Source: Woeseia oceani
GTDB lineage: Bacteria; Pseudomonadota; Gammaproteobacteria; Steroidobacterales; Woeseiaceae
Length of the DNA stretch: 64,000 nt
Assembly (NCBI RefSeq): GCF_001677435.1
Contig: NZ_CP016268.1
Location: forward strand, 1,539,001-1,603,000
Direction: 5' to 3'
Positions 25,590 to 50,740 of the stretch are shown one piece after another. Below the pieces are notes generated by a model, which saw only the letters and a list, made by a program, of their open reading frames with translations, was not told where the DNA came from and ran no database searches. The position numbers and the translations under genes are program-made. Every line of letters begins with the position of its first letter. Positions within the stretch are counted from its first letter, which is position 1.

Positions 25590-27212
25590 TCAGTTCCGCA
25601 AAGGAGCGGCGGAGAACAGGTCGCGGATCCCAGGCCGATCAGGCTTTCCATGGGCAGTAAGCGGCAGCGATTTGAGAATTAATATTTCATCAGGTTGCAT
25701 GTACGGTGGCAGTTCCCGTGCACACACATGGCGGATAGCGAAATCATTGTCCTCATGCAGTGATTTGGGAACGATAGCTACCGCGATTCGTTGACCGACC
25801 CGCTCGTCCGGCAGGCCAACGGCAATGACATGTTCAACGAGGTCGCTCGCATGAATGACCTCTTCGACTTCGGCAGGGCTGATCCGGTAGCCCGAGCTCT
25901 TGAGCATATGATCCGCGCGGTCAACGAAAAACAGGTATCCGTCCTCATCGCGTCTGACCAGGTCGCCAGACCATACGGCGAGCCGATGTGGACTGCCATT
26001 GCTGAGCGCCTTCGGCAAGGGTTTAAATCGTTCAGCAGTCGCCGCAGCGTTCTTCCAGTAACCCATGCTGATGAGTGCGCCACTGTGTACCAGCTCGCCA
26101 GGCTCACCCGGCGCGCAGCTTTCGCCGTTGGCGTTGACGACGTCGATGGTCACACCGGGAATTGCCTTGCCGATTGAGTCCGAGCGGGTATCAAGTTGCG
26201 CCGGATCAAGGTAGGTGGATCGAAATGATTCCGTCAGTCCGTACATCAGGAAAAGCTTAGCGCTGCCGGCTCGCGAGCGCAGGCGTTGCAATACGGACGA
26301 GGGAATGCGCCCGCCGGAGTTGGTCATGTACCGCAAGTGTTCGGTGATTTCTTCCGGCCAGACGACAGTCACCAGCTGGGCCCACATCGTGGGGACGCCG
26401 GCCAGACCAGTGATCCGGTACTTGCGCAGTTCTCCAAGCAGCTGCTGGGGCATTGAATAGTTGGTCAGTACCACCTCTGCATTGGCATAAAACGCAGTGG
26501 TGATCTGGCTGAAGCCGTAGTCGAAGCTCATCGGCAGCGTTGCGAGTATTCGATCCTGTGCCGAGTTATTGAGATAGCCTGAGACGATGCGCACACCGTC
26601 CAGCAAATTTCTGTGGGATACGAGAACGCCCTTTGCCCGACCGGTACTGCCGGAGGTGTAAAAGATCAGCGCGGGATCGTCGAGAGTGGGCGTGTGCGGA
26701 GAAGCGCTGGCCTCACCAGGGCGGCCAGCCAGGGCCTCCTGCCACGTGAGCATTTCGAATTTCGCAGGCGTTTGCACGGCGGCTTCGGTTGCGTCAGACA
26801 GTATCACCGTGTCTATGTTTGGCAGGGCTTCAAGTACGCCTGCGATCGATTGAAACAGGTAGCTCGTGCTAATCAGCACCGAAGCACCGCTGTCTTTCAA
26901 TACGTGTTCGATCTGGCGAGGACGCAATAACGGATTGACCGGTACGTAGATGCCGCCTGTGAGCATGGTAGCGAATGCCGCAATCACTGCTTCCGGGCAA
27001 TTGGGCAACAAGACAGCGACCCTCGTTTGTGACGCGGACTGGCGGGCCGCCAATTGTGCGGCAAGTGCCGCAACGGTGACCGATAAATCGGCGTACGAAT
27101 ACCTGTCATCTTTGAATGTCAGCGCGACTTTGTCGGGGGTCCGTTCGGCTCCGCGGGTCAATATGTCAGGCAACTTCTGCAACGATGATGCCTGATCGGA
27201 TGTGCTGCTCAT
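25590..27212 (-). CDS. Acyl-CoA ligase, exosortase-A-system type
   Basis: A 540-residue AMP-forming ligase. It shows the ATP loop FYTSGSTGRAKGV near residue 190, YGLTESFRST, WSGDLVRRDEDGYLFFVDRADHMLKSSGYRISP, and a C-terminal lysine in TAHGKPDRPG. It resembles the ligases that accompany XrtA loci with hydrolase 1 and 2. Both hydrolase-like genes are present nearby (30255 and 31210), which supports that assignment. Substrate unknown. Confidence 0.86.
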   Translation of the reverse strand: MSSTSDQASSLQKLPDILTRGAERTPDKVALTFKDDRYSYADLSVTVAALAAQLAARQSASQTRVAVLLPNCPEAVIAAFATMLTGGIYVPVNPLLRPRQIEHVLKDSGASVLISTSYLFQSIAGVLEALPNIDTVILSDATEAAVQTPAKFEMLTWQEALAGRPGEASASPHTPTLDDPALIFYTSGSTGRAKGVLVSHRNLLDGVRIVSGYLNNSAQDRILATLPMSFDYGFSQITTAFYANAEVVLTNYSMPQQLLGELRKYRITGLAGVPTMWAQLVTVVWPEEITEHLRYMTNSGGRIPSSVLQRLRSRAGSAKLFLMYGLTESFRSTYLDPAQLDTRSDSIGKAIPGVTIDVVNANGESCAPGEPGELVHSGALISMGYWKNAAATAERFKPLPKALSNGSPHRLAVWSGDLVRRDEDGYLFFVDRADHMLKSSGYRISPAEVEEVIHASDLVEHVIAVGLPDERVGQRIAVAIVPKSLHEDNDFAIRHVCARELPPYMQPDEILILKSLPLTAHGKPDRPGIRDLFSAAPLRN

Positions 27213-27275: not shown

Positions 27276-28688
27276 TTAGAACTGGAAGTACACGAATACT
27301 TGCGGCGTTAGTGGTGGGAAGACCAGCAACATGAACACGAAATAGGCATAGATGGCGGCCCGGACCATTCGCGGCAGACTCAGTACGTGCAGCAGGTTTC
27401 GCGATCGTTCTATCCAGAATTCCAGCAGCATCATGGGCAAGGCGAAGAAAGCGAGCATACCGAGGATATACGCGGAAAAATCCGTTACGCCAACATTTTG
27501 GAACAATCCGATGACCATTTCGTTCGCCTGAGTCAGTGACTCGGCGCGGAAGTAGATCCAGGTGATGCAAACGATATGGAAAAATATAATAACGCTGAAT
27601 AGTCGCTTCACTCCCGACAGGGCCGTTAGCGCCCGGCCACGGGCTTCCAGGATGTGATAGGCGATCAGGACAGAACCGTGAATGACGCCCCAGACGATGA
27701 AGGTCCAGTTGGCACCGTGCCACAGGCCGCCAAGGGCCATGGTCAGCATCAGGTTTCTGAAAGTGCCGTACACACCGCTGCGGTTGCCGCCCAATGGGAT
27801 GTAGAGGTAGTCGCGCAGCCAGGACGACAGCGTGATGTGCCAACGTTGCCAGAACTCGCTAGGTGTTCTGGAAAAGTACGGCATCTTGAAATTCCAGGAA
27901 AGATTAATGCCTAGCCACTTGGCAATGCCCTGTGCAATCGATGAATAGCCCGAGAAGTCGCAATAGATCTGTATTGCGAACGCGTAGATTCCGAACAGGA
28001 TCTCTGTATTGGCGAGTTCTGCAGTCGGTGTCGAGAAAATCCGGTCCACTACGGGAGCCAGGTTGTCTGCAATCACCACCTTCTTGAACATGCCGAAGAG
28101 CACGTGGTACAGGCCTTCGGCAAACGCGCCTTGTGCCAGTACGCGTGGTTTCAGGATCTGCGGCATCAGGTCTTTCGAGCGTTCGATCGGTCCGGCGACA
28201 AGCTGCGGAAAGAACGACACATAGACAGCGAAATCGAGTAAGCCGCGGGTAGGGCGAGTTACCCGCCGGTATACGTCAATCGTGTAGCTGAGCGTCTGGA
28301 AGGTATAGAAGGAGATGCCGACTGGCAGAATGATATTAAGTGTGGGTATTGATGCGCTGAAACCAGCCGCTTCCAACAGTAGTGCGAATTCATTAACAAA
28401 AAAGCCAAAGTATTTGAAAAAGCCCAGCAGGCCAAGATTGGTGCAGATCGATAGCAGCAGCCAGCGCTTCCGTCGCCCAGGGTCTTCATTGGCATCCACT
28501 TTCTGCGCGACGACGAAGTCGATCGCAGTAGACAGGAGAATCAGCGAAAGAAAACGCCAGTCCCAGTAGCCGTAAAACGTGTAGCTTGCCACGAGGAGCA
28601 GGACGTTCTGACCACGGAGATTCAGCCGCCAGTAAACCGCAATAACGATGGCGAAGAACGCCCAGAATATGAAACTGTTAAACAGCAT
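27276..28688 (-). CDS. MBOAT-family membrane O-acyltransferase
   Basis: A 470-residue protein with about ten membrane segments. The catalytic MBOAT histidine is in LGGLWHGANWTFI (near residue 330), preceded by the family's SEFWQRWHITLSSWLRDY segment. AlgI/DltB-type enzymes move acyl groups across the membrane for O-acylation of polysaccharides. The next gene encodes a single-pass SGNH protein, giving the usual AlgI/AlgJ-like pair. Confidence 0.9.
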   Translation of the reverse strand: MLFNSFIFWAFFAIVIAVYWRLNLRGQNVLLLVASYTFYGYWDWRFLSLILLSTAIDFVVAQKVDANEDPGRRKRWLLLSICTNLGLLGFFKYFGFFVNEFALLLEAAGFSASIPTLNIILPVGISFYTFQTLSYTIDVYRRVTRPTRGLLDFAVYVSFFPQLVAGPIERSKDLMPQILKPRVLAQGAFAEGLYHVLFGMFKKVVIADNLAPVVDRIFSTPTAELANTEILFGIYAFAIQIYCDFSGYSSIAQGIAKWLGINLSWNFKMPYFSRTPSEFWQRWHITLSSWLRDYLYIPLGGNRSGVYGTFRNLMLTMALGGLWHGANWTFIVWGVIHGSVLIAYHILEARGRALTALSGVKRLFSVIIFFHIVCITWIYFRAESLTQANEMVIGLFQNVGVTDFSAYILGMLAFFALPMMLLEFWIERSRNLLHVLSLPRMVRAAIYAYFVFMLLVFPPLTPQVFVYFQF

Positions 28689-35152: not shown

Positions 35153-35857
35153 CTATTTAACCTCGTTAGCCGTCCGTCCGGCTTGTAATGCATCTTGTGT
35201 GTACTTGCTCATGGTCGCGTATGCCGCTGCCGTGAGATGACTGCCGTCGTCGACAGCAAACTCGCTCTTCCGTGTTCCATCTGAGTCCGCGAGTAGTGAT
35301 TCAAAATCGAGAACCGTTATGCCTTTGGAGCGAGCGAAGTCTTTGAGCCAGATATTGACCTCTTTCACGTGCCCATTGATCATGCTCTGATAACTGGTCT
35401 TGCCCAGAATGTCGCCGATAACGCTGGCAGCCCAGTTCGCAAACCCGGCTTCACCACGAATTGACACTTCTGTTGCAAGTATGACTTCAATTCCTTCCTT
35501 TTCTGCAGCGGCAACCATTGCTTTGTAACCGCTTTGAATGCGTTGTTTCGTTTCCTCCATCTTCCCTGGTTCTGCACGGAAGATGTCATTGATAAAACCC
35601 CAGATTAAGACCTTGGCAGGTTCGAGCGCGACAACGTCCTCGTCGAATCGCTCGTGCATGTCAAAAGACTCATTGCCTCCTATCCCTCTGTTGACCACCG
35701 GGTGACCGGCCAGTTGTTCAATTGGCCAATGGGCCGCGTACGAGGCTCCAAGTATTACCGCTGGAGCATTCTTGCTTGTCATTGTTTCCTGCTGAGCTCC
35801 AACCGTCGCTGAAAAGAAAAGTACGGCTAATAATAGGTGTCGGACGTGTAATCGCAT
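35153..35857 (-). CDS. Secreted SGNH/GDSL hydrolase
   Basis: A 234-residue protein with a signal peptide (residues 1-21, ending VGAQQ). All SGNH blocks are visible: Ser in ILGASYAAHW, Gly in NRGIGGNE, Asn in WGFINDIF and the Asp/His pair in DDGSHLTAAAY. It probably de-esterifies acylated carbohydrate outside the cytoplasm. It sits 3 bases upstream of the beta-helix gene, so the two are probably made together. Confidence 0.83.
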   Translation of the reverse strand: MRLHVRHLLLAVLFFSATVGAQQETMTSKNAPAVILGASYAAHWPIEQLAGHPVVNRGIGGNESFDMHERFDEDVVALEPAKVLIWGFINDIFRAEPGKMEETKQRIQSGYKAMVAAAEKEGIEVILATEVSIRGEAGFANWAASVIGDILGKTSYQSMINGHVKEVNIWLKDFARSKGITVLDFESLLADSDGTRKSEFAVDDGSHLTAAAYATMSKYTQDALQAGRTANEVK

Positions 35858-35963: not shown

Positions 35964-36638
35964 TTAGTTTACGACTCGCATGACGTCGTTGGAAAAGCTG
36001 CTTTCTATGCCGTACTGATTCACGGCGGTAGCGACAAAGTAATAAGTGCCAGGTGCCAGATTCTCAACTTGATAAGACGACAGGCCCGGATTGTCGATGT
36101 AAACGTCGTTCGGATACTGGCCGCGCGTCATGCCATAGTAGATTTTGAAGGCGGCGTGATCGGTAAACGGTGTACCGTCGGTGTTTACCGACGGGGCAGC
36201 CAGCGACAAAGTTGCGGAGCCCAGGCCTGATTGGGTAACGGTAATCGAGAACTGGCGAAGTACGACGGTTGCCGTGCCATCCGATACGCTAATGGTGATG
36301 TTGCTGTAGGTGCCTTCATTGCCCAGCAATGGCTGTCCCGTTAGCTGCCCGTTGGCGGCATTGAACGTAGCCCAGTTGGGACGATTCTCAATCGAAAACG
36401 TCAACGAATCGCCGTCCGGGTCGGTGGCGTTCGGGGTAAATGTATAGGTCTGCCCGATCGTAATGGCGGAGGCGGGGCTGCCGGATATGACCGGGGCCGT
36501 GTTTCCGTCCTGACCTGGCGGTGGCGAATTGCCGTCGCCGTTATCGACTTCCCCGCCCGCCGTCAGGCAGCCACTCAGTGTCAGCAGCAACGACAGGATG
36601 GCAATAGTGCCGATCGACTTGGACAAAACTAGTTTCAT
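35964..36638 (-). CDS. Lipoprotein with putative Ig and fibronectin-like domains
   Basis: A 224-residue lipoprotein. The signal ends in the lipobox LSGC (Cys near residue 24). A Pro-rich linker is followed by a putative Ig domain (He_PIG type; TDPDGDSLTFSIENRPNWATF and GQLTGQPLLGNEG) and a C-terminal fibronectin-like domain. It may bind polysaccharide at the cell surface. It is the first gene after the GEMM-I riboswitch, and its GAGG ribosome site at 36646-36649 lies in a possible hairpin. Confidence 0.8.
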   Translation of the reverse strand: MKLVLSKSIGTIAILSLLLTLSGCLTAGGEVDNGDGNSPPPGQDGNTAPVISGSPASAITIGQTYTFTPNATDPDGDSLTFSIENRPNWATFNAANGQLTGQPLLGNEGTYSNITISVSDGTATVVLRQFSITVTQSGLGSATLSLAAPSVNTDGTPFTDHAAFKIYYGMTRGQYPNDVYIDNPGLSSYQVENLAPGTYYFVATAVNQYGIESSFSNDVMRVVN

Positions 36639-36797
36639 TACCGTACCTCGTTCGATGTTTCGAGCGTCAGCTGCTGATTTCGTCTATGCAGCTTTGCAAA
36701 CACTCGAGCAACCGTGGTTCTCGAAATCCGGTAAACAGGAACTATTCGGGCAGGTGCCGGTAGATAGCGTCCGATAGTGCGATCGCACTTCAGGCTC
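36639..36797 (-). promoter_or_regulatory. Riboswitch expression platform / leader
   Basis: The 159 bases between the aptamer and ATG 36638. Directly after the aptamer is a perfect 14-bp palindrome (36776-36789). Near the start, CTCG (36661-36664) can pair with CGAG (36647-36650), which contains most of the GAGG ribosome site. No U-run terminator is seen, so control of translation is more likely than termination. This is inference from pairing by eye. Confidence 0.5.
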
Positions 36798-36870
36798 TGG
36801 CAACCCCGCTGTCATAGGTAAAACCCGTAGACCGGAAGCTTTGCGTCCCTGTCTTTCGACAGGTTTGCCA
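36798..36870 (-). ncRNA. Cyclic-di-GMP class I (GEMM-I) riboswitch aptamer
   Basis: Read on the minus strand the RNA has the GEMM-I order: P1 strand UGGCAA, then ACC, a hairpin with GAAA tetraloop closed by CUGUC/GACAG, the diagnostic GGGACGCAAAGC core, a UCCGG element, the P3 arm with GGUUUUACC, and the closing GCGGGGUUGCCA which pairs with P1. This closely matches the Vibrio Vc2 aptamer known from the literature. It lies 159 bases before the lipoprotein gene heading the 14-kb minus-strand polysaccharide run. Confidence 0.9.
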
Positions 36871-36886
36871 TTTACAGTACAGCCAA

Positions 36887-36914: not shown

Positions 36915-37445
36915 GGCCCGTACCTGTAAACTTTGAAGTCCATCATGATTTAAGTTCACAGGCCGCTTATGTCACATGGCCAGAACGTCTTTTGTTGTCG
37001 ATACACTGGCATCGCAGAAGTCTGGTGGGCAAGGAACGCTCGCGTTCAATACCCCGTCACATCGGGCTTCAGCTTTATTAGAGCAAGTACCGTGCCACTA
37101 ATTACTAATGTGTTTAGAATCAGAGCAGTTACGTCTAATTCGGTCTCGCTCTATGGGCTTGCATCGTAGCAATTTACGAATTTTCTGTCGCAATTCCCTG
37201 ACGCTGTTTAAGGTCTTTTCTAGCTAACAGGGGCTAAGTCCTCAGCATTCCTGTGGTTTTGTTTCGTCGCTGTTCGGCGACAGGTCCGAAGCGCTTGAAA
37301 AATCTGCGCAAAGTTTCTGACCGCGTAAATGGCCGGGTGAGGAGGTGGGCAAATTTCGTGGGCCGGAACTGCCCGCTGGCGCAGAGCTGGCCTGGCTTTC
37401 TGCTACTATTGCCAGCCTTTTTCACCCGCAGGAACAGACCCTTAA
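36915..37445. other. Intergenic region between the polysaccharide operon and gltX
   Basis: About 530 bases with no convincing gene; part (37080-37200) is more A+T-rich than the surroundings. A small hairpin (GTCGC, 6-base loop, GCGAC) lies near 37266-37281. gltX promoter elements could not be picked out with confidence. Confidence 0.4.
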
Positions 37446-38858
37446 ATGACCGTTCGTACCCGATTCGCTCCGAGCCCAACCGGAGTGCTCCATCTAGGCA
37501 GTATTCGCACTGCGCTTTTTTGCTGGCTGTACGCTCGCCACACCGGCGGTGAGTACCTCGTAAGAATTGAGGACACCGACCGCGAGCGGTCGACGGATGA
37601 AAACGTAACGGCGATTTTCGAAGGGTTGTCGTGGCTTGGCATTACTTCGGATAAGGAGCCGGTCTATCAGACCCGGCGCTTTGACCGGTACCGCGAGGTC
37701 ATTGCGCAGTGGCTGGACAACGGCAAGGCCTATCATTGTTATTGCAGCCGGGAGCGGCTGGCGGCTGTCCGCGAAGAGCAGATGGCAGCCGGGCTAAAAA
37801 CCCGCTACGACGGTCGGTGTCGTGATGGTGCGGAGCCCGTTGATGGAGTAAATCCGGTTGTGCGCTTCCGCAATCCCACGGACGGTGACGTGCTCGTAGA
37901 GGATCTTGTTCGTGGCGAAGTGGTCTTCAGCAATCGGGAGCTGGACGACCTGATTATTTGCCGCTCCGATGGCACGCCGACTTACAACTTCACAGTAGTG
38001 GTTGACGATGCAGACATGGGTATTTCACACGTAATCCGCGGCGACGACCATCTCAACAATACACCGCGGCAGATGAACATGTTTGCGGCACTGGGCGTCA
38101 CGCCGCCCGGTTTCGCGCACCTGCCAATGATACTGGGGCCCGATGGCGCCAAGTTGTCCAAGCGGCACGGTGCTGTCGACATCCGTGACTACCAGCAGCA
38201 GGGCTATTTGCCTGCAGCGCTGCTTAACTACCTGGTACGGCTTGGCTGGTCGCACGCTGATCAGGAGATCTTCTCAGTGGAGGAGATGATCGAGTTGTTC
38301 GATATCGCGAACGTCAACCAATCCGCCTCCGCTTTCAATCCGGAAAAGCTCCGCTGGTTGAATCAGCAGCACATCAAGGCGATGCCAGCTGATGAACTGG
38401 GCACCTTGCTGCGGCCGTTCCTTGAACGGGCTGGATTGGCTGTCGACTCAGGTCCGGAGCCGTCGGCGGTTGCCGACGCCTACCGTGAAAGGGCAGAAAC
38501 CCTGGTGGAGCTGGCCGCGAGCTGCCAGTACCTGTACAACGATTTTGCCGAGATCGATCCCAAGGCGGCGAAGAAGAACCTGCGGCCGGTCGTGCTGGAG
38601 CCTCTGCTGGATGTGCGCGAACGACTGGCGGCATTGCCGGAGTGGCGGGCTAAAGAGCTCATGGAGGCCATTGAAGCCAGCGCAGCGGCATTTGAGCTCA
38701 ACATGGGTAAACTCGGTCAGCCGCTGCGGGTTGCCGTGACCGGCAATGGGGTTTCACCGCCCATCGATATTACATTGGAGTTGATCGGCCGGGAGCGTAG
38801 TCTGCAGCGCCTCGATCGTGCGCTCGAATTGGTTCGTGACAGGGCTGCAGCCAGTTGA
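37446..38858 (+). CDS. gltX: Glutamyl-tRNA synthetase
   Basis: A 470-residue class I aminoacyl-tRNA synthetase. The HIGH motif reads PTGVLHLGS near residue 10, and the KMSKS loop reads AKLSKRHGAV near residue 240. RIEDTDRERS and FRNPTDGDVLVEDLVRGEV are typical of bacterial GluRS. It charges tRNA-Glu with glutamate. A tRNA-Glu gene lies about 190 bases downstream on the same strand. Length is normal. Confidence 0.97.
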   Translation: MTVRTRFAPSPTGVLHLGSIRTALFCWLYARHTGGEYLVRIEDTDRERSTDENVTAIFEGLSWLGITSDKEPVYQTRRFDRYREVIAQWLDNGKAYHCYCSRERLAAVREEQMAAGLKTRYDGRCRDGAEPVDGVNPVVRFRNPTDGDVLVEDLVRGEVVFSNRELDDLIICRSDGTPTYNFTVVVDDADMGISHVIRGDDHLNNTPRQMNMFAALGVTPPGFAHLPMILGPDGAKLSKRHGAVDIRDYQQQGYLPAALLNYLVRLGWSHADQEIFSVEEMIELFDIANVNQSASAFNPEKLRWLNQQHIKAMPADELGTLLRPFLERAGLAVDSGPEPSAVADAYRERAETLVELAASCQYLYNDFAEIDPKAAKKNLRPVVLEPLLDVRERLAALPEWRAKELMEAIEASAAAFELNMGKLGQPLRVAVTGNGVSPPIDITLELIGRERSLQRLDRALELVRDRAAAS

Positions 38859-40066: not shown

Positions 40067-41503
40067 ATGGCTAATCAAGCGAAGTTCCAACCCTCAGCAA
40101 AAGCACAAGCATTCCTGGATACGGTTCAAAAAGGCAAGTATAAGCGTGAAATTATCACCGGACTTGCAAAGTTCCTTGATAAGAAAGTGCCCGAGGATAT
40201 GCAGGGCTTCTATTCAAAAAACGAGTTGCAGACACTCGTCGACCTGCGTGGGACCAATGCCGATGTTGAGTCGCGGATGCCCGTAAAGATTACCCGGCAT
40301 TATTTTGATCTGGCGAAAAAGAGCGCTGCGATCCAGACGCTCGTCAAGGCCAGCCCAAAGGAAACCTACGACCTTGAGGGTGCGCCAGATCCAGGCAAAC
40401 AAATGGATTACAGCCCGGTTGAAGGTCTGATTCACAAATACGAGCTTGGCTTGATCTATGTCGCATCGACCTGTTCGGCGCATTGCCGCTTCTGCTACCG
40501 GGAAGAGCTGATTGCCAAGAAGGAAGTAGCGCGTCCGGATGGCACGATCGCACCGAAAGGGCTCGCGCAAATTCCGGAAATCGTGGCTTATATTGAAGAG
40601 CACAACAAACAGGTCGCTGAGAACGGCGGACGTCATCCCAAGACCGGGCGTGAAAAGCTCCGTGAGATTCTTATGTCTGGCGGTGACCCTATGGTGCTCG
40701 GCAATAACAATATCGCCGAATGGTGGTCGGCTCTTGCAGACGCGGGAATAGAATCCATCCGGCTCGGCACAAAAGAACTGGCGTTCTATCCCGACCGGTT
40801 CGACGAAACGTTTTTTGACATGGTGGACAAGTTCCACGAAGCCTACCCATCGACGCAGATCCGCTTCATGGTGCACTTCAATCATCCGGATGAGTTTTTA
40901 GCCAAGGATGAAGAGGGTAACTACATCGATGATCCTGATGGTGGACTGGAGTGGGTTCCGAGCACGAAGCGCAGCATTAAGGAACTTGGCAAGCGGGAAT
41001 GGCTAAGCATTGACAATCAGGCCCCAATTATCAAAGGCATCAATGGTGATCCGGATGCATTGCGAATCATGCAGCGCGAACTGCGCAGAAACCGGGTTGA
41101 GAATCATTACTTCTTCTGTGGACGGGACATTATCGGGCATAGAGCATTCAACCTGCCAATTGAAGACGTGTGGAATATTCTTAACGAGTCGCAGAAGGGC
41201 TTGTCGGGTGTCGAAAGTCATGCGCGCCTGTCTATCACTCATTATCGAGGCAAGACTGAAGTTGTTGCCGTAACCAACGAGCCACTCGCCGGGATACCTG
41301 GTACAGAAAACGGCGTCGTCATTCTCAAGTTGTTGCGCGGTGCTGCGGATGCTCCGGATCGCGGCAAAGTGGCGATCGTTGGACGTAATCCGGACGCAAT
41401 CTGGTTCAGCGGCTATGAAGACCGGGTGATTTACGACGAGGCCGGACTGTTCGACCAAGTGGAAGAGCAGGTAGTGGAAAAGCCTCTCTTGCAGCAAGCA
41501 TGA
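40067..41503 (+). CDS. Radical SAM aminomutase, divergent lysine-2,3-aminomutase (KamA) family
   Basis: A 478-residue radical SAM, PLP-type enzyme. Cysteines 136, 140 and 143 in CSAHCRFCYR bind the 4Fe-4S/SAM centre; LREILMSGGDP and IRFMVHFNHPDE match the KamA core. The PLP-binding lysine of KamA (GGGGK) seems to be Lys396 in HYRGK. Compared from memory with Clostridium KamA, the Asp that holds the lysine side chain seven residues before (Asp330) is Ser here, so the substrate may not be lysine. The family moves an alpha-amino group to the beta carbon. Ferredoxin and CoA-transferase genes follow in one operon. Confidence 0.82.
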   Translation: MANQAKFQPSAKAQAFLDTVQKGKYKREIITGLAKFLDKKVPEDMQGFYSKNELQTLVDLRGTNADVESRMPVKITRHYFDLAKKSAAIQTLVKASPKETYDLEGAPDPGKQMDYSPVEGLIHKYELGLIYVASTCSAHCRFCYREELIAKKEVARPDGTIAPKGLAQIPEIVAYIEEHNKQVAENGGRHPKTGREKLREILMSGGDPMVLGNNNIAEWWSALADAGIESIRLGTKELAFYPDRFDETFFDMVDKFHEAYPSTQIRFMVHFNHPDEFLAKDEEGNYIDDPDGGLEWVPSTKRSIKELGKREWLSIDNQAPIIKGINGDPDALRIMQRELRRNRVENHYFFCGRDIIGHRAFNLPIEDVWNILNESQKGLSGVESHARLSITHYRGKTEVVAVTNEPLAGIPGTENGVVILKLLRGAADAPDRGKVAIVGRNPDAIWFSGYEDRVIYDEAGLFDQVEEQVVEKPLLQQA

Positions 41504-41521
41504 TCGGAAGGGCGTACTGAA

Positions 41522-41845
41522 ATGACTTTTGTAGTGGGTCAAAACTGCATTCGGTGCAAAGATACGGATTGTGTCGAAGTATGTCCTGTCGATTGCTTCT
41601 ACGAAGGACCGAATTTCCTGGTAATCAACCCGGATGAATGCATCGATTGTGAAGATTGCGTTCCGGCCTGTCCGGAAGATGCGATATACGCAGAGGACGA
41701 CGTTCCGGACGATCAAAAAGCGTTCATCGAACTCAATGCCGAACTCGCGGAAATCTGGCCGAATATCTCGGAGAAAAAAGACAGGCTTCCAGACGCCGAT
41801 AAATGGAGCGGGGTTGCCGATAAGCTCAAGTACCTTGAACGCTAG
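41522..41845 (+). CDS. fdxA: 7Fe ferredoxin (FdxA type)
   Basis: A 107-residue ferredoxin with N-terminal cluster motifs [17 protein letters not shown] and [17 protein letters not shown], giving one 3Fe-4S and one 4Fe-4S cluster as in Azotobacter-type FdxA, plus the usual acidic C-terminal tail. It starts 18 bases after the aminomutase stop, so it may supply electrons for its SAM cleavage; FdxA otherwise has general redox roles. Confidence 0.9.
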
Positions 41846-41868
41846 AGTTGTAACGTCGGTTCACTCCT

Positions 41869-42579
41869 ATGATTAATAAGATCCGAGAATCGGCCGCCGT
41901 AGCGGTGGCCGATGTTCACGATGGCGCTACCGTGTTGATCGGTGGCTTTGGTGAGGCCGGTAGCCCCATTGAGCTGATCCACGCGTTGATCGACCAGGGC
42001 GCACGCGGACTTACTGTGGTGAATAACAACACCGGCAGTGGCCACGTCGGTCTGGCCGCTCTCATCGAGAACGGCCGGGTGGCAAAAATGATTTGTTCCT
42101 TTCCGAGAACGACGAACTCGACGGTATTCCCTGATCTGTATTCGAGGAACGAAATCGAGCTCGAACTGGTTCCACAAGGAACACTGGCGGAAAGGATTCG
42201 TGCGGGCGGCGCAGGAATCCCCGCTTTCTACACGGCTACATCCATCGGGACCTTGCTGGCGGAAGGTAAAGAGGTCAGGCAGTTCGACGGCCGCGATTAC
42301 GTGTTGGAGCCTGCGCTGAAAGCGGATTTTGCCCTGATAAAATGCCGTTGCGCGGACCGATACGGCAATCTCGTGTACAGCAAAACGGCCAGAAACTTTG
42401 CACCCATCATGGCAACAGCGGCGACGACGACCATCGTTCAAGCCAATGAAATCGCCCCCGTTGGCGCATTGGACCCGGAGTCCATTGTTACTCCAGCGAT
42501 CTATGTGAACCGCGTTGTCGAGATTCGATCCCCCCTTCAGGAGTCTGAGCTTGTGGCCAGCCAGGTGCGGTACCCATGA
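41869..42579 (+). CDS. 3-oxoacid/3-oxoadipate CoA-transferase subunit A
   Basis: A 236-residue CoA-transferase alpha subunit: VLIGGFGEAGSPIELIHALID, NNNTGSGHVGLAALIENG, EVRQFDGRDYVLEPALKADFALI. This is the PcaI/ScoA family, which moves CoA from succinyl-CoA (or another donor) to a 3-oxoacid. Its stop overlaps the start of subunit B by four bases (ATGA), showing coupling. The substrate in this operon is inferred, not shown. Confidence 0.88.
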   Translation: MINKIRESAAVAVADVHDGATVLIGGFGEAGSPIELIHALIDQGARGLTVVNNNTGSGHVGLAALIENGRVAKMICSFPRTTNSTVFPDLYSRNEIELELVPQGTLAERIRAGGAGIPAFYTATSIGTLLAEGKEVRQFDGRDYVLEPALKADFALIKCRCADRYGNLVYSKTARNFAPIMATAATTTIVQANEIAPVGALDPESIVTPAIYVNRVVEIRSPLQESELVASQVRYP

Positions 42580-43265
42580 GTACGCATGTTGAGAACGCGG
42601 CTGGATGGAGCCGGCAGGAAATCGCCAGAATGATTGCGCGCGACATTCCGGATGGCTCCTACGTGAACCTGGGTATTGGTATGCCGGAAAGCGTTGTGAA
42701 TCACATTCCGGAAGACCGTGAAGTGATCTTTCATACCGAGAACGGCCTGCTCGGAATGGGGCCCGCGCCGGAGCCGGGCAGAGAGGATCCCGAATTGATA
42801 AACGCCGGCAAGAAGCATGTGACAGCTGTCGCCGGAGCGGCCTATTTTCATCATGCCGACAGCTTCGCGATGATCAGGGGCGGGCACATTGATATTTGCA
42901 TCCTCGGCGCCATGCAGGTTTCGCAATCGGGTGATCTTGCCAACTGGTCGATGGGCGCAGCAGACGCTGCACCCGCGGTTGGCGGTGCAATGGACCTGGT
43001 TGCTGGAGCGAAACAAGTGATCGTGGCCACTCAGCACTGTACAAAATCGGGTGCGCCGAAACTTGTGGACAAGATCAGCCTTCCGGCGACCGGTCTCGGC
43101 GTGGTTACCCGGGTCTACACGGACCTTGCCATTCTCGCTGTTGGCAATGGCGCCTTTGAGCTGCTGGAACTTGCACCGGGCGTTGAGCTGAAAACACTGC
43201 AGGACAAAACAGGGGCGCCAATAGTGATTCCTGCTAAGTACTCTGCCGAACAGGCAGCAGTTTGA
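42576..43265 (+). CDS. 3-oxoacid/3-oxoadipate CoA-transferase subunit B
   Basis: A 229-residue beta subunit. Glu55 in HTENGLLGMGP is the CoA-thioester-forming residue of the family; NLGIGMPESV and GAMDLVAGAKQVIVA are typical of PcaJ/ScoB. It forms a heteromer with subunit A. The stop overlaps the aminotransferase ATG (TGATG), so the three genes are a tightly coupled unit. Confidence 0.89.
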   Translation: MSTHVENAAGWSRQEIARMIARDIPDGSYVNLGIGMPESVVNHIPEDREVIFHTENGLLGMGPAPEPGREDPELINAGKKHVTAVAGAAYFHHADSFAMIRGGHIDICILGAMQVSQSGDLANWSMGAADAAPAVGGAMDLVAGAKQVIVATQHCTKSGAPKLVDKISLPATGLGVVTRVYTDLAILAVGNGAFELLELAPGVELKTLQDKTGAPIVIPAKYSAEQAAV

Positions 43266-44611
43266 TGAGTACCAACAACGACTCAATCGCGAGCGACGAG
43301 CGTTCTCGAAGCGAGCTGCTCTACGATCGCGCTCAACACGTCATGCCCGGCGGCTGTAGCCGAAACACCGTCTTGCGGAAACCGCACCCGTTCTACGTTG
43401 ATTTCGGCAGTGGCTGCTATGTCACCGACCTTGATGGCAACCGCAGAATAGACTTCGCCAACAACATGGCGTCGCTGATCCATGGTCATGCCAACGAGGC
43501 GATAGTTGCTGCGGTTAGTGCGCAATTGCGACGTGGAACCGCATTTACTTTGGCCACGGAGCAAGAGGTTCTCTACGCCGAAGAGATGGTTGATCGCAGC
43601 GACTCGTTTGAAAAGATTCGCTTCGTAAATTCGGGTACCGAAGCGGTTATGAGCTGCTTGAAAGCGGCCCGCGCCTACACAGGGCGGCCAAAAATCGCGA
43701 AGGTGGAGGGCGCCTATCATGGTCTGTACGACTTTGCGGAAGTCAGCCAAACCTCGAACCCGGGCAACTGGGGAGATGCGGCACAGCCAGCCAGCGTCCC
43801 GGTTGCACACGGAACGCCGCAGTCTACCCTGAATGACGTCGTAGTCATTCCGTTCAATGACGCCGCCAGGTCGATCGAGATTCTCGAAAAGCACGTTGCT
43901 GATCTGGCCTGCATTTTGCTGGATCTTGTTCCGCACCGCATCGGCTTGGTTCCGGCTCAAAAAGAGTACGTGCAGGCATTAAGACGGTGGACGAAAAAGA
44001 ATAACGTCCTCCTGGTGTGCGACGAAGTTATTACTTTTCGCTGCGGTTTCGGCGGGGCGCAGGAACATTTGGACGTGAGTCCGGACTTGACTGCCATGGG
44101 CAAAATGATCGGCGGCGGTTTTCCTGTCGGCGCCATTGCAGGCTCGTCCGCGGTCATGGAAGTGATGAACCCGCTTAAGTCACCCGTGTTATTCCCTCAT
44201 TCCGGCACATTCTCAGCGAATCCGGTCACTATGACCGCTGGCCGGGTTGCCATGCAATTGTTCGATCGAAGCGCGGTCGACGCCTTGAACGCGCTTGGGA
44301 GTACGGCGCGGCAACAACTGACAGAAGCAATCTCGGTTGCCGGCGTCGCGGCCTGTGTTACGGGAAGCGGTTCGATGTTCAGAATATTGATGAAGCCGGA
44401 GGCTCCGGCGAATTATCGCAGTGCGTATGCAAGTGCGGCAGAAAACCAGATCTTGCAGTCCTTTCTGGATTACGTAACAGCGAATGGAATTCTACTAATT
44501 GGAACTGGCGCAGGAATGCTGTCAACGGCAATGGGTCAAAAGGAAATAGACCAGCTTTGCGAGACAGCGTTAGCCGGATTTAGACACTTGAAAGCGAACG
44601 GCGGATTGTAA
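43265..44611 (+). CDS. Class III PLP aminotransferase (glutamate-1-semialdehyde aminomutase-like)
   Basis: A 448-residue class III aminotransferase. Evidence: MPGGCSRNT start, GTEAVMSCLKAARA phosphate site, ILLDLVPHR, VCDEVITFRCGFGG, and Lys280 in MGKMIGGGFPVGA as the Schiff-base lysine. It resembles HemL-like enzymes; beta-amino-acid transaminases belong to the same group. In this operon it could deaminate the beta-amino acid made by the aminomutase to a 3-oxoacid. The start is ATG 43265, one codon inside a TTG. Confidence 0.88.
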   Translation: MSTNNDSIASDERSRSELLYDRAQHVMPGGCSRNTVLRKPHPFYVDFGSGCYVTDLDGNRRIDFANNMASLIHGHANEAIVAAVSAQLRRGTAFTLATEQEVLYAEEMVDRSDSFEKIRFVNSGTEAVMSCLKAARAYTGRPKIAKVEGAYHGLYDFAEVSQTSNPGNWGDAAQPASVPVAHGTPQSTLNDVVVIPFNDAARSIEILEKHVADLACILLDLVPHRIGLVPAQKEYVQALRRWTKKNNVLLVCDEVITFRCGFGGAQEHLDVSPDLTAMGKMIGGGFPVGAIAGSSAVMEVMNPLKSPVLFPHSGTFSANPVTMTAGRVAMQLFDRSAVDALNALGSTARQQLTEAISVAGVAACVTGSGSMFRILMKPEAPANYRSAYASAAENQILQSFLDYVTANGILLIGTGAGMLSTAMGQKEIDQLCETALAGFRHLKANGGL

Positions 44612-44612
44612 G

Positions 44613-46124
44613 ATGACGATGAAAACTGAAGTAGCTGAGTTACTGGTGAGATTGGGCGTGCCCGCGTCCCAAATCGATACCGGCACACTAAAAGTCACCA
44701 CGCCGTTGACTGGCGAAGAGATTGGCTCTGTAAAAAAAGCAACTGTCGAAGACGTAAATGCTCAAATTGAGACAGCACACGCGGCCTTCCTGCAGTGGCG
44801 CCTGGTGCCCGCACCGCGGCGTGGCGAACTGGTCCGCCTGTTGGGCGAGGAACTTCGAAAAGCCAAAGACGATCTTGGTCGACTCGTCAGTATTGAGGTT
44901 GGAAAGATTCCTTCAGAAGGTCTGGGCGAAGTTCAGGAGATGATCGACATCTGTGATTTTGCGGTCGGTCTGTCACGGCAGCTATACGGCTTGACGATTG
45001 CCAGTGAACGACCCGGGCACAAGATGACCGAAGTTTGGCACCCACTGGGTGTTACCGGTGTTATCAGCGCGTTTAACTTTCCAGTCGCTGTGTGGTCCTG
45101 GAACACGGCATTGGCGCTGGTTTGCGGCAACAGCGTGGTGTGGAAGCCATCGGAGAAGACACCGCTCACGGCGTTGGCGTGCACAGCGATCATGGATCGC
45201 GCAGTGGAACGATTTGCTGATGCGCCGGCGGGCTTGCATCAGCTGGCGCTGGCGGACCGGGTAGGGGGAGCCGCGCTGGTTGAGAGCCCCCGTGTGCCCT
45301 TGATATCCGCCACCGGGTCCACGGCCATGGGGCGCCAGGTTGGACCGCGGGTTGCGGAGCGCTTCGGCCGCAGCATCCTTGAGCTCGGCGGCAATAATGC
45401 CGGCATAGTCAGCGAGCAGGCGGACCTGGATATTACGCTGCGAGCGGTGGTGTTCAGCGCGGTCGGTACGACCGGACAGCGGTGCACGTCGATGCGGCGC
45501 TTGTTGGCGCATGACACGGTTTATGACGAGTTCGTGGCCAAGGTGAAGAAAGCCTACGCGACGGTCACTGTTGGCAACCCCTTGGCCAGCAACTCCCTGG
45601 TCGGCCCGCTTATCGACAAGTTCGCCTACGAACAGATGCAGAAAGCGCTGGCCGATGCGCGTGCACTTGGGGCAACAGTGACAGGCGGCGAGCGGGTCCT
45701 GGAAGACGAGTACCCGGATGCTTACTACGTGCGACCGGCTTTGGTGGAAATGCCGGAGCAAACCGGTCCAATGCTGGAAGAGACGTTCGCACCGATACTC
45801 TACGCGGTGCGGTATACGAATTTGGCCGATGCTCTGGACACCCACAATGCGGTCGGAGCGGGTTTGTCGTCCGCCATCTTTACGCTGAACATGCGTGAAT
45901 CGGAACAGTTCCTGGGCGCGGCTGGTTCGGACTGCGGTATTGCCAACGTCAATATCGGTACGTCCGGCGCCGAGATCGGTGGCGCGTTTGGTGGCGAGAA
46001 AGAGACCGGTGGCGGCCGTGAGTCCGGCTCAGACTCCTGGAAAGGGTATATGCGACGTGCGACCAACACGATCAATTACTCTACTGAATTGCCGTTGGCG
46101 CAGGGCGTGTCGTTCGACTTTTAA
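44613..46124 (+). CDS. Antiquitin-type aldehyde dehydrogenase (ALDH7, aminoadipate-semialdehyde dehydrogenase-like)
   Basis: A 503-residue aldehyde dehydrogenase. Glu257 in ELGGNN and Cys291 in GQRCTS are the catalytic pair; the ALDH7 signature GVTGVISAFNFPVAVWSWN and the C-terminal GGEKETGGGRESGSDSWKGY are visible. ALDH7/AmaB enzymes oxidise 2-aminoadipate 6-semialdehyde in lysine breakdown. The gene begins one base after the aminotransferase stop. This makes a six-carbon, lysine-like carbon skeleton plausible for the operon. Confidence 0.9.
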   Translation: MTMKTEVAELLVRLGVPASQIDTGTLKVTTPLTGEEIGSVKKATVEDVNAQIETAHAAFLQWRLVPAPRRGELVRLLGEELRKAKDDLGRLVSIEVGKIPSEGLGEVQEMIDICDFAVGLSRQLYGLTIASERPGHKMTEVWHPLGVTGVISAFNFPVAVWSWNTALALVCGNSVVWKPSEKTPLTALACTAIMDRAVERFADAPAGLHQLALADRVGGAALVESPRVPLISATGSTAMGRQVGPRVAERFGRSILELGGNNAGIVSEQADLDITLRAVVFSAVGTTGQRCTSMRRLLAHDTVYDEFVAKVKKAYATVTVGNPLASNSLVGPLIDKFAYEQMQKALADARALGATVTGGERVLEDEYPDAYYVRPALVEMPEQTGPMLEETFAPILYAVRYTNLADALDTHNAVGAGLSSAIFTLNMRESEQFLGAAGSDCGIANVNIGTSGAEIGGAFGGEKETGGGRESGSDSWKGYMRRATNTINYSTELPLAQGVSFDF

Positions 46125-47788: not shown

Positions 47789-49180
47789 TTGAGCGAATCG
47801 AGCCGCAAGCTTTTGATCGTCGAAGATGATCCGGGTCTGCTGAATCAGCTTAAATGGTGCTTTGAAAGCTATGACGTAGTGACTGCCAGCGATCGATCGT
47901 CGGCCATTGCCGAGCTTCGCCGCCACGAACCGTTGGTCGTACTCCAGGACCTGGGCCTGCCGCCCAATCCCGATGGTGTGGAAGAAGGCCTGGCAACCCT
48001 CCAGGAGACCGTGAAGCTGTCGCCATTCACCAAAGTCATTGTCGTTACCGGCCATGGCGATCAGCAAAACGCATTGCGTGCCATCGCCTTGGGCGCTTAC
48101 GATTTCTATCAGAAGCCAGTTGACACCGACACGCTGCAACTCATTGTTGATCGCGCTTTCAATATTGCAGAGCTGGAAAGCGAGAACCGGCGACTGCAGG
48201 CGGTAGCGACCCAGTCGCCGCTCGAGGGCATTGTGGCGGCCAGTGATGCGATGTTGCAGGTTTGTCGCATGATCGAAAAAGTCGCGCCGACCAACGTAAC
48301 CACCTTGTTGCTGGGTGAGTCAGGTACAGGCAAGGAATTACTATCCCGTGCGATCCACCGTCTTAGCCCGCGGCGCGACAAGCGTTTCGTGGCGATCAAT
48401 TGCGCCGCTATTCCTGAAAACCTGCTCGAATCCGAATTGTTTGGCTACGAAAAAGGGGCGTTCACCGGCGCTGCGAGACAGACGCCAGGCAAAGTCGAAA
48501 TGGCTGACGGGGGCACGTTGTTCCTTGACGAGATCGGCGACATGCCAATGTCACTGCAGGCAAAGATGCTCCGGTTTCTGCAGGAGCGGGTGGTCGAGAG
48601 GGTTGGTGGTCGCGAGGAAATACCGGTTGATGTGCGGGTGGTCTGTGCAACCAACCAGAATCCGGTTGAACTGATCAAACAGGATCTTTTTCGTGAAGAT
48701 CTCTATTACCGCGTGTGCGAGATTACTATCGATATACCACCTTTCCGCGATCGGGAGGAGGGCCGGCTGATACTGGCGCGGGTGCTCTTGAACAAGTACG
48801 CCGAACAGCAGAAGCGGGCGATCAGTGGTTTCTCGGACGACGCGGCAGAAGCCATTGAAGCGTATTCCTGGCCCGGCAACGTTCGGGAGCTGGAGAACAA
48901 GGTCAAGAGCGCCGTGATAATGGCCGACGGCAAGCAGGTCACCGCGGCTGACCTCGGGCTTGCGGGCGTGGATGCCGAAGAAGAGACACTGAACCTTCGC
49001 GAAGTACGGCAGCACGCCGAATCCAAAGCTATCCGCAAGGCGCTGATGAAGAACTTCGGCAATATTTCCCGCACAGCGGAATTGCTTGGGGTTACGCGGC
49101 CGACGCTGTACGACTTGTTAAGCAAGTACGGCCTGTCTGCCGAAGCCTACTCGAAGCGCGCTAACGAAACCAAAGAGTGA
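47789..49180 (+). CDS. prsR: PrsR-type sigma-54-dependent response regulator (PEP-CTERM system)
   Basis: A 463-residue NtrC-family regulator starting at TTG 47789 after AGAAGGGG. Receiver domain with Asp54 in VVLQDLGLPPNPDGVEEG, AAA+ domain with Walker A GESGTGKE near residue 177 and GAFTGA near residue 223, then a Fis-type helix-turn-helix (NISRTAELLGVTRPTLYDLL). The receiver matches the PrsR family that controls exosortase/PEP-CTERM and exopolysaccharide genes in gammaproteobacteria. Its usual partners PrsK and PrsT are not adjacent. Confidence 0.88.
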   Translation: MSESSRKLLIVEDDPGLLNQLKWCFESYDVVTASDRSSAIAELRRHEPLVVLQDLGLPPNPDGVEEGLATLQETVKLSPFTKVIVVTGHGDQQNALRAIALGAYDFYQKPVDTDTLQLIVDRAFNIAELESENRRLQAVATQSPLEGIVAASDAMLQVCRMIEKVAPTNVTTLLLGESGTGKELLSRAIHRLSPRRDKRFVAINCAAIPENLLESELFGYEKGAFTGAARQTPGKVEMADGGTLFLDEIGDMPMSLQAKMLRFLQERVVERVGGREEIPVDVRVVCATNQNPVELIKQDLFREDLYYRVCEITIDIPPFRDREEGRLILARVLLNKYAEQQKRAISGFSDDAAEAIEAYSWPGNVRELENKVKSAVIMADGKQVTAADLGLAGVDAEEETLNLREVRQHAESKAIRKALMKNFGNISRTAELLGVTRPTLYDLLSKYGLSAEAYSKRANETKE

Positions 49181-49265: not shown

Positions 49266-50624
49266 CTAACGAACCTTAAACGCATCCGGGTTCAGCTCGT
49301 GGCGTGCGAGCAGTTTGTAGAAATCCGTACGATTGCGTTTTGCCAGGCGTGCGGCCTGACTAACGTTGCCACCCGTGATCTGCAAAATTTGCGACAGGTA
49401 ATTGCGGGTGAATTCATCGCGGGCTTCGCTGAATGAGGCGAGCTTACCGGCGTGCTCGCCCAACGATGTTTGTACCAGCTCACCGCTGATTACGGGTGAG
49501 CGAGATAGCGCGACGTTCTGGCGCACGACGTTGTAAAGCTGGCGAATGTTGCCCGGCCATTCAGCGGTTACCAGCAACTCAACAGCTTCCGGGGCATACA
49601 CTTTGCGGTCAGTATCCCCATCCGCGGCCAGTTGCTGCAGAAAGTGCGAGACCAGCAATGGGATGTCTTCGCGCCGCGCATCAAGTTCAGGCAGATTGAT
49701 GTTGACGACGTTCAGTCGGTAATAGAGATCTTCACGAAAACGACCTTCGCGCATCATGTCCTGCAGATCGCGGTGGGTTGCCGAAATTATGCGTACGTCA
49801 ACCTGAATAGCTTCGGTGCTGCCAACCGGGCGCACCTGATTTTCCTGTAACACTCGCAACAATTTGACTTGCAAACGCATCGGCATGTCACCGATTTCGT
49901 CCAGCAACAAGGTGCCACCCTCGGCCGATTGAAAGAGACCTTTGTGGCTGCGCGTAGCGCCGGTGAAAGCTCCTTTTTCGTGGCCGAATAATTCGGATTC
50001 CAGGAGGTTCTCGGCCATCGCGCTGCAGTTGATCGCTACAAAGGGTTTGTTGCGTCGCGGGCTTGCGCGATGTATCGCTTGCGCCAGCAGTTCCTTACCC
50101 GTACCCGATTCACCATTAATGAGTACGCGCGCATCTGTTGCGGCAACCATCTTGGCCTGCGCCAGAATTTCCTTCAGCTTCGGGTTGCGAGTAATGATCT
50201 CCTCGCACCAGTTGTCTTCGACATCGGCCATTGGGGAGCCGGAAATTTTCATCGCGCGTTCCACCGCGCTCATGAGTTCATCTTTGTCGATAGGTTTGGT
50301 CAGGAATCCGAATGCACCGCTTTGGGTGGCAGTCACGGCATCCGGAATGGTTCCGTGAGCGGTGACGATGACAACCCGCAAGCCGGGAGACCGGCTCTGC
50401 AATTCTTTGAGCAGACCGATGCCGTCCATCTTGTCCATGCGCAGGTCGGTAATGACAAGATCCGGTTGGAAGCGATTGACCACTGCCAACGCTTTCTCGG
50501 CACTTTCGACAGCTTCAACATCGTACTCTTCAGCGCGAAGTCGAATGCTTAACAGGCGCAACAGTCCGGGGTCATCATCAACCAGAAGAATTCGGCCTTT
50601 CGTAGTGCTGTTTTTGCTCGCCAT
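49266..50624 (-). CDS. Sigma-54-dependent response regulator (GlrR/QseF-like)
   Basis: A 452-residue NtrC-family regulator. Receiver Asp in DLVITDLRMDKMDG, Walker A GESGTGKE, GAFTGA, and a C-terminal HTH (GGNVSQAARLAKRNRTDFYKLL). Gene order kinase, lipoprotein, regulator on the minus strand matches the GlrK-QseG-GlrR envelope-stress system, so it probably controls small RNAs or envelope genes through sigma-54. Name inferred from order and domains. Confidence 0.85.
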   Translation of the reverse strand: MASKNSTTKGRILLVDDDPGLLRLLSIRLRAEEYDVEAVESAEKALAVVNRFQPDLVITDLRMDKMDGIGLLKELQSRSPGLRVVIVTAHGTIPDAVTATQSGAFGFLTKPIDKDELMSAVERAMKISGSPMADVEDNWCEEIITRNPKLKEILAQAKMVAATDARVLINGESGTGKELLAQAIHRASPRRNKPFVAINCSAMAENLLESELFGHEKGAFTGATRSHKGLFQSAEGGTLLLDEIGDMPMRLQVKLLRVLQENQVRPVGSTEAIQVDVRIISATHRDLQDMMREGRFREDLYYRLNVVNINLPELDARREDIPLLVSHFLQQLAADGDTDRKVYAPEAVELLVTAEWPGNIRQLYNVVRQNVALSRSPVISGELVQTSLGEHAGKLASFSEARDEFTRNYLSQILQITGGNVSQAARLAKRNRTDFYKLLARHELNPDAFKVR

Positions 50625-50740
50625 GGACTTACTTTATGTGAGATCCGGGCCGCTATTATGGCGCGTGTACGATGAATTGTCCTGCCGGGTTTGCACTGTC
50701 GCCGATAGGTGACAGTTGCGGAGCTGTACGAACAACAAGG

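Follow-up and report, generated by a model that had tools for sequence, protein, structure and literature searches.

According to excerpts of PMC8745638, TGTCN10GACA is the consensus operator of QseF (GlrR), a response regulator known from enterobacteria. PEP-CTERM genes offer a second point of reference: the excerpted text of Haft 2006 (PMC1569441) describes a 17-nt motif upstream of their sigma-54 promoters, and a partial text of PMC9850573 reports that a PEP-CTERM gene of Aquincola is sigma-54-dependent. In Methylophaga nitratireducenticrescens GP59, four c-di-GMP riboswitches flank PEP-CTERM-type genes near exopolysaccharide genes (PMC12530212, 2025, in its excerpted sections), so a link between c-di-GMP riboswitches and exosortase-type loci is already in print. 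Within the open-licence literature, sigma-54, exosortase loci and a c-di-GMP riboswitch were not found together in any paper, nor was ‘exosortase’ with ‘c-di-GMP riboswitch’, and no paper on Woeseia and c-di-GMP was found; the only paper matching riboswitch, sigma54-dependent promoter and c-di-GMP together is a Yersinia review.

The window, analysed here by computation, is a 64,000-nt stretch of the Woeseia oceani genome (positions 1539001-1603000 of 4.06 Mb, one contig) and forms the right part of an exosortase-A (XrtA) exopolysaccharide locus, with XrtA itself at genome positions 1529976-1530749, ~8-9 kb left of the window (241 bits; cut-off 208). We propose, with a probability of roughly 0.6, that a lipoprotein mRNA encoded in it has a long 5' leader with a genuine c-di-GMP-I riboswitch, and that this mRNA is probably made by sigma-54 polymerase under a GlrR-like activator, its expression being gated by c-di-GMP. 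The features discussed below are as follows, in window coordinates.

25590-27212, minus strand: acyl-CoA ligase, exosortase A system-associated (TIGR03098, 626 bits; cut-off 592)
27276-28688, minus strand: MBOAT O-acyltransferase (PF03062, 7.2e-28)
35153-35857, minus strand: SGNH/GDSL hydrolase, next in the run after the lipoprotein (PF13472, 1.9e-17)
35964-36638, minus strand: lipoprotein of 224 aa with lipobox LSGC, a He_PIG Ig-like domain and a C-terminal FN3-like domain
36639-36795, minus strand: leader from aptamer to start codon, 157 nt, with stem-loop AGTGCGATCGCACT directly after the aptamer
36796-36879, minus strand: c-di-GMP-I (GEMM-I) riboswitch aptamer (RF01051, 85.3 bits; gathering score 35; model positions 1-87 of 87)
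37082-37097, minus strand: predicted sigma-54 promoter TGGCACGGTACTTGCT, a -24/-12 site matching TGGCACN5TTGCW exactly
37186-37203, minus strand: putative proximal operator CGTCAGGGAATTGCGACA, TGTC-N10-GACA with one mismatch, 106 nt upstream of the -24 element
37265-37282, minus strand: putative distal operator TGTCGCCGAACAGCGACG, TGTC-N10-GACA with one mismatch, 185 nt upstream of the -24 element
37446-38858, plus strand: gltX, divergent, the shared neighbour of the promoter-riboswitch unit (PF00749, 1.6e-99; synteny)
47789-49180, plus strand: PrsR, PEP-CTERM-box response regulator (TIGR02915, 717.7 bits; cut-off 502.6)
49266-50624, minus strand: GlrR-like sigma-54 response regulator, the candidate activator (NF011695 GlrR, 634.5 bits)
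51375-52841, minus strand: sensor histidine kinase in the GlrK position (best NCBIfam match CreC, 161 bits, with none of the listed cut-offs reached)
56928-60440, plus strand: PAS-GGDEF-EAL protein (Pfam EAL 4.7e-67, GGDEF 2.6e-45)

As a riboswitch, the aptamer is an ordinary, plain member of a known family. A cmscan search of the whole window against Rfam 15 placed RF01051 at 36879-36796 on the minus strand (E = 2.1e-15), full length, not truncated and far over the gathering score. The initial annotation had called a class I c-di-GMP riboswitch at 36798-36870, which lies inside this match, and the GEMM-I landmarks that it listed (the GAAA loop, the GGGACGCAAAGC core, the P3 arm and GGGGUUGCC) were all found. 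Four c-di-GMP-I aptamers occur in the genome, the window copy again scoring 85.3 bits, and the family is present in 77 of the 99 genomes searched within the order, the genome of W. oceani included. From its sequence, the window aptamer is expected to bind c-di-GMP. Another of these aptamers (L003, genome positions 3123835-3123922, minus strand) lies ahead of a gene, MNVVIFGKGFGKPRQ..., that looks M23-peptidase-like by eye and precedes an ORF read by eye as SecA; an M23-peptidase-like first gene, again judged by eye, follows 8 of 31 aptamers. Tandem c-di-GMP-I aptamers stand ahead of lipoprotein genes at L203 4366-4653 (genome G044) and L078 13715-14046 (G083), an arrangement that would sharpen or combine the response.

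The initial annotation overlooked what lies further upstream, a sigma-54 promoter with two operators, as well as the exosortase-A setting. TGGCACGGTACTTGCT is the only exact match to TGGCACN5TTGCW in the window, where 0.07 are expected, and one of two strict sigma-54 matches in the genome; it carries the required -24 GG and -12 GC at consensus spacing. The site lies 218 nt upstream of the aptamer, and transcription from it is predicted to start near position 37071, ~190 nt ahead of the aptamer. Across nine loci, the position-specific mean core score of the operators is 6.67 of 8, compared with a maximum of 4.67 in 300 shuffles, and in seven of the nine the tandem operators begin 104-106 and 183-185 nt before the -24 element. 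The other arrangements are those of G003, where both operators are shifted by ~9 nt and the proximal one is weak (6/8), and of locus L097, with a single operator at 93 nt. An IHF-like site, sought between operators and promoter, has a nine-locus mean of 8 (maximum of 7.56 in 200 shuffles), with a best score of 7/9 in the window. To our knowledge, a sigma-54 promoter with tandem operators ahead of a c-di-GMP-I riboswitch is unusual.

Comparison of gltX loci ties the promoter to the aptamer. At a chosen threshold, gltX homologues were found in 31 of the 62 family genomes, giving 30 loci; some DNA upstream is available for 27 and 1,300 nt or more for 25. An aptamer is present at 6 of these 25 loci (G000, G003, G009, G040, G044 and G050), and at exactly the same six a near-consensus sigma-54 site precedes the aptamer, 320-431 nt from gltX; among the other 19, a weak sigma-54 match occurs in G029 alone and far away (Fisher 4e-5, counting G029 and ignoring phylogeny). 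Related genomes are not independent, and all p-values given here ignore phylogeny. L091 provides a seventh promoter-aptamer case. When seven leaders with both elements are aligned, conservation is, by eye, clearest in the sigma-54 box and in the aptamer. The He_PIG/FN3 lipoprotein is found in five of the six gltX riboswitch loci and at L091. The exception, G003 (L161 8922-10316), has promoter and aptamer at gltX, and the lipoprotein behind them is proline-rich, a search of 3.5 kb finding no He_PIG and no FN3 domain; the same control can thus stand ahead of different output genes. All six gltX riboswitch genomes have an XrtA match of at least 202 bits, G044 falling just under the cut-off of 208, and 7 of the remaining 19 gltX genomes have one of at least 200 bits.

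The promoter pattern can also be followed independently of the RNA and the protein. When 396 genomes of the order were searched with a pattern combining the sigma-54 site and the two operators, 10 matches appeared in 9 genomes, against 1 in the reversed control; four of them are loci from which the pattern had been derived, and the other six had not been seen before. Each of the ten stands ahead of a lipoprotein gene of one family, with FN3, He_PIG or both, so that the DNA pattern alone found six further members of this Ig-like/FN3 target class. FN3 is present in nine, and the tenth match, the second site of G280, has He_PIG repeats up to the end of the stretch. In G043, He_PIG and FN3 lie in different frames, reflecting a frameshift or a sequencing error. 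An aptamer lies downstream in eight of the ten. The distance from the sigma-54 site to its start is 10-34 nt in G233, in G357 and at the first site of G280, and in one of the eight the match is weak (33 bits with our own model). This weak aptamer (L233 1850-1934, G280), behind a matching promoter at the gltX locus, is perhaps a decaying riboswitch. At L225 and L226 (G256 and G294), a tandem-operator sigma-54 promoter and an FN3 lipoprotein occur without an aptamer, so the RNA input has been gained or lost separately; in G294, an exosortase-like ORF, identified by eye, follows. G233, G256, G294 and G357 carry tandem operators outside the family of W. oceani. At L225-L228 in these four genomes (genus g40), the lipoprotein is reduced to signal, linker and FN3, and a He_PIG repeat was not found. 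When the pattern was relaxed to one operator and run over the 62 family genomes, it matched 20 times versus 8 in the control, with an aptamer at 6 of the 20, and newly uncovered G051, which has aptamer, He_PIG and FN3; the other 14 matches are mostly at chance level.

Which activator would act here? The candidate regulator of the window scores below the NF011695 equivalog cut-off (634.5 versus 763 bits), and we therefore call it GlrR-like; the next family follows at 444 bits, 190 lower. The order of kinase, third gene and regulator matches the enterobacterial GlrK-GlrR order, as quoted with PMC8745638 in the excerpt used. We infer from operator sequence and gene content that the activator is the GlrR-like regulator; its signal would come from the envelope. 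An exact TGTC-N10-GACA palindrome also lies at 50697-50714, between the GlrR-like gene and its upstream neighbour. Among 20 genomes picked by hand, the motif, with at most one mismatch, occurs 112-133 nt before the start of the match to the GlrR-like gene in 7 and within 250 nt in 9 (shuffle mean 1.5, maximum 5). The palindrome together with the motif in 7 of 20 genomes suggests that the GlrR-like gene may regulate itself.

The sigma-54 promoter could instead belong to the PrsK-PrsR PEP-CTERM regulon rather than answer to a GlrR-like activator, a possibility that we consider rather unlikely even though PrsR and XrtA are encoded at the same locus, where the GlrR-like regulator and kinase genes adjoin PrsR. 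PrsR is over its cut-off in 38 of the 62 family genomes, including all six with gltX-linked riboswitches. Six ORFs of the genome carry a PEP-CTERM signal, and sigma-54-like sites with up to two mismatches precede five of them by 11-145 nt, within 90 nt in four, in a count made without a control. TGTC, moreover, opens both kinds of operator. The remainder of the operators differs, however. The four sigma-54-like PEP-CTERM promoters examined by eye have the upstream 17-mer TGTCGGCCGGTTTTACA and variants, ending in TTTACA in two and in ATTACA and TTTCCA in the others, a motif of the kind given in the excerpt of PMC1569441, whereas the riboswitch promoter has TGTC-N10-GACA pairs. By eye, TTTACA is absent from the 150 nt upstream of the -24 element of the riboswitch promoter, and the 17-nt motif ending in TTTACA ~63 nt before a sigma-54 site, by which the PrsR regulon would be recognized, was not found there. 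The presence of TGTC-N10-GACA before the GlrR-like gene itself also points away from PrsR.

A further alternative, which we judge unlikely, is that this is an ordinary c-di-GMP-I riboswitch under a nearby sigma-70 promoter, the sigma-54 site being a chance match or a minor second promoter. The initial annotation had placed a promoter about 10 bases upstream of the aptamer. Such a sequence does exist, TTGCCT-16-TATAAC, with 9 of 12 matches and ending 7 nt before the aptamer, but it is weak and fails the rule of the scanner. Adjacent sigma-70 promoters do look common: among lipoprotein-linked aptamers that have no sigma-54 site, 8 of 32 (25%) score at least 9 in the 80 nt upstream, compared with ~8% of shuffles. 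Moreover, the sigma-54 site is absent from most aptamers, being found within 350 nt upstream, with at most one mismatch, at 5 of 39 lipoprotein-linked aptamers and 3 of 31 others (shuffle means 0.44 and 0.37, respectively), so the pairing of riboswitch and lipoprotein is wider than this promoter. At the eight other sigma-54 loci, however, the best sigma-70 scores are 10, 7, 8, 8, 6, 7, 7 and 7; aside from the 10 of G050, the match drops to 6-8, so that the adjacent promoter is not shared by most corresponding loci, whereas the sigma-54 site and its two operators keep their spacing from locus to locus. Judged from these sequences, the sigma-54 site appears to be the better promoter. That the ligand is another dinucleotide such as cGAMP (GEMM-Ib) is highly improbable, for although GEMM-I variants with changed specificity are known, c-di-GMP-I is the best Rfam family of its clan for the window aptamer, and the G before C in GGCAAA, which we take to be the ligand-specificity base corresponding to G20 of Vc2, is present here and invariant in 33 of 33 aligned aptamers.

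The first gene behind the riboswitch is indeed a lipoprotein, as the initial annotation had it, its He_PIG domain matching Pfam at 3.2e-12 and its FN3-like C-terminus emerging from alignments. The AlphaFold2 model (pLDDT 79) has two beta regions with strands throughout residues 50-223, and its best PDB matches are Ig, cadherin and FN3 tandems, with low overall TM-scores; the protein may serve in adhesion or help to organise the matrix. Searching named genomes with the C-terminal FN3 domain, at the protein level only, returned 79 loci, which hold 52 aptamers, 50 of them on the sense strand (33-aptamer model). A sense-strand aptamer lies within 400 nt upstream of 37 of the 79 FN3-domain genes, and of 34 of the 68 untruncated genes with more than 700 nt upstream; start codons were chosen by script and, since all three seed proteins are encoded behind riboswitches, these fractions are biased toward such loci. 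Conversely, He_PIG or FN3 is found within ~1.5 kb behind 11 of the 31 aptamers (of 33 aligned) with enough downstream DNA. From these comparisons, the Ig-like/FN3 lipoprotein appears to be the usual target of the promoter-riboswitch unit.

The exosortase setting was assessed at 17 acyl-CoA ligase places, of which 15 exceed the cut-off; G001 narrowly misses it, and G083, chosen after its riboswitches had been seen, scores far lower. Up to ~60 kb was scanned around each place, within contig ends and chosen regions (4.5 kb for G001 and 6.7 kb for G078), and a 4.6-kb contig of G059 was scanned besides. The model built from 33 aptamers found 10 aptamers in the 736,842 bases covered, and 9 of the 17 places have at least one nearby. 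Because the same 17 genomes hold 69 aptamers in ~69 Mb, ~0.7 would be expected near the ligases (Poisson 7e-9, counting W. oceani itself and G083 and ignoring phylogeny). The He_PIG/FN3 lipoprotein lies directly downstream of the XrtA-locus aptamers of G000, G007, G038, G040 and G050; G083 has its He_PIG/FN3 gene further down, G029 has a different lipoprotein, and He_PIG and FN3 were not found in the 3.2 kb and 3.5 kb behind the aptamers of G064 and G091. Taken together, the comparisons support the predicted aptamer and promoter, the pair of operators, the lipoprotein gene as usual target and the link to exosortase loci.

The minus-strand run begins with the lipoprotein, the SGNH hydrolase, a probable beta-helix protein, a glycosyltransferase, two hydrolases and a glyoxalase-like protein, and continues with one further protein, the MBOAT acyltransferase, the acyl-CoA ligase, a flippase-like protein and a glycosyltransferase. 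The SGNH hydrolase and the acylation genes on the same strand were correctly described in the initial annotation; its beta-helix protein is probable, the DUF5123 match falling below the cut-off. We discarded this gene as a locus marker, as it has matches in just 2 of 98 relatives (G059 and G018). That the riboswitch heads an exopolysaccharide run holds in part: the genes share a strand, and a scan confined to the first gap found no terminator, but four gaps exceed 100 nt, and the target shared among relatives is the lipoprotein, behind which a convergent gene can lie (L091 and L203). Co-transcription of the lipoprotein with the downstream acylation and polysaccharide genes is possible. The PAS-GGDEF-EAL protein 20 kb away is where it was said to be; it says little about this riboswitch, because c-di-GMP is diffusible and domains for making and for degrading it occur in this one protein. 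Elsewhere in the window, at 40067-46124 on the plus strand, a radical SAM aminomutase-like gene, two CoA-transferase subunits, a GSA-aminomutase-like aminotransferase and L-piperidine-6-carboxylate dehydrogenase follow one another and may form a cluster for the degradation of lysine or a beta-amino acid.

How the aptamer would control expression can be approached from the leader. No intrinsic terminator was found in its 157 nt, and we dropped termination of this kind as the expression platform; translational or Rho-dependent control is thus likelier, and c-di-GMP gating most likely acts at translation. When 16 loci (G003 and G050 left out) were folded with the aptamer locked or free, no clear ON or OFF switch emerged; with the aptamer locked, access to the start region was lower in seven, higher in none and unchanged in nine, which leans slightly against ON. 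On biological logic only, we would favour ON with c-di-GMP. A stem-loop after the aptamer is common, with a mean z of -1.27 in the first 45 nt versus -0.26 and 0.05 further on (36 loci, with eight listed loci left out, most of which have start codons close to the aptamer), but it is not diagnostic.

A working model can be outlined from these parts. Upon an envelope signal, the partner kinase would switch on the GlrR-like response regulator, which would bind the two TGTC-N10-GACA operators, and sigma-54 polymerase would then start well ahead of the aptamer. Binding of c-di-GMP in the aptamer would gate expression of the Ig-like/FN3 lipoprotein, so that both an envelope signal and the c-di-GMP level would be needed to place this protein at the surface beside the XrtA exopolysaccharide. 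More broadly, a GlrR-type sigma-54 promoter and a c-di-GMP-I riboswitch may form a conserved two-input module, dedicated to one Ig-like/FN3 lipoprotein family at XrtA loci, in which both signals must coincide; we regard the odds of this wider proposal as even. If true, it would connect three layers usually studied apart: control by a response regulator and sigma-54, control by a c-di-GMP riboswitch, and the exosortase/exopolysaccharide system found in sediment bacteria. It would also name a lipoprotein family as the likely output and would give c-di-GMP a testable role in Woeseiaceae.

Compared with RF01051 in general, the window aptamer is no different, being full length with all landmarks, and the distinguishing features of the locus lie around it. 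With the PrsK-PrsR regulon, as excerpts of PMC1569441 and PMC9850573 portray it, the locus shares a sigma-54 -24/-12 promoter, an upstream activator site, an XrtA-type genome and PrsR; it differs in having paired TGTC-N10-GACA sites instead of the 17-nt TTTACA motif, and a riboswitch in the mRNA. With the GlrR/QseF glmY promoter of enterobacteria, in the part of PMC8745638 that treats it, the locus has in common TGTCN10GACA, its presence in several copies and sigma-54. The product of glmY is a small RNA, whereas here a protein-coding mRNA has a riboswitch leader, and the IHF-like site is poor (7/9). Finally, Methylophaga GP59 and the Woeseia locus both have c-di-GMP riboswitches within an exosortase-type exopolysaccharide neighbourhood. 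In the excerpted account of GP59 (PMC12530212), the targets are PEP-CTERM or VPLPA-CTERM proteins and no sigma-54 promoter is mentioned; the Woeseia target, by contrast, is a lipoprotein without that signal, and its riboswitch lies behind a predicted sigma-54 promoter.
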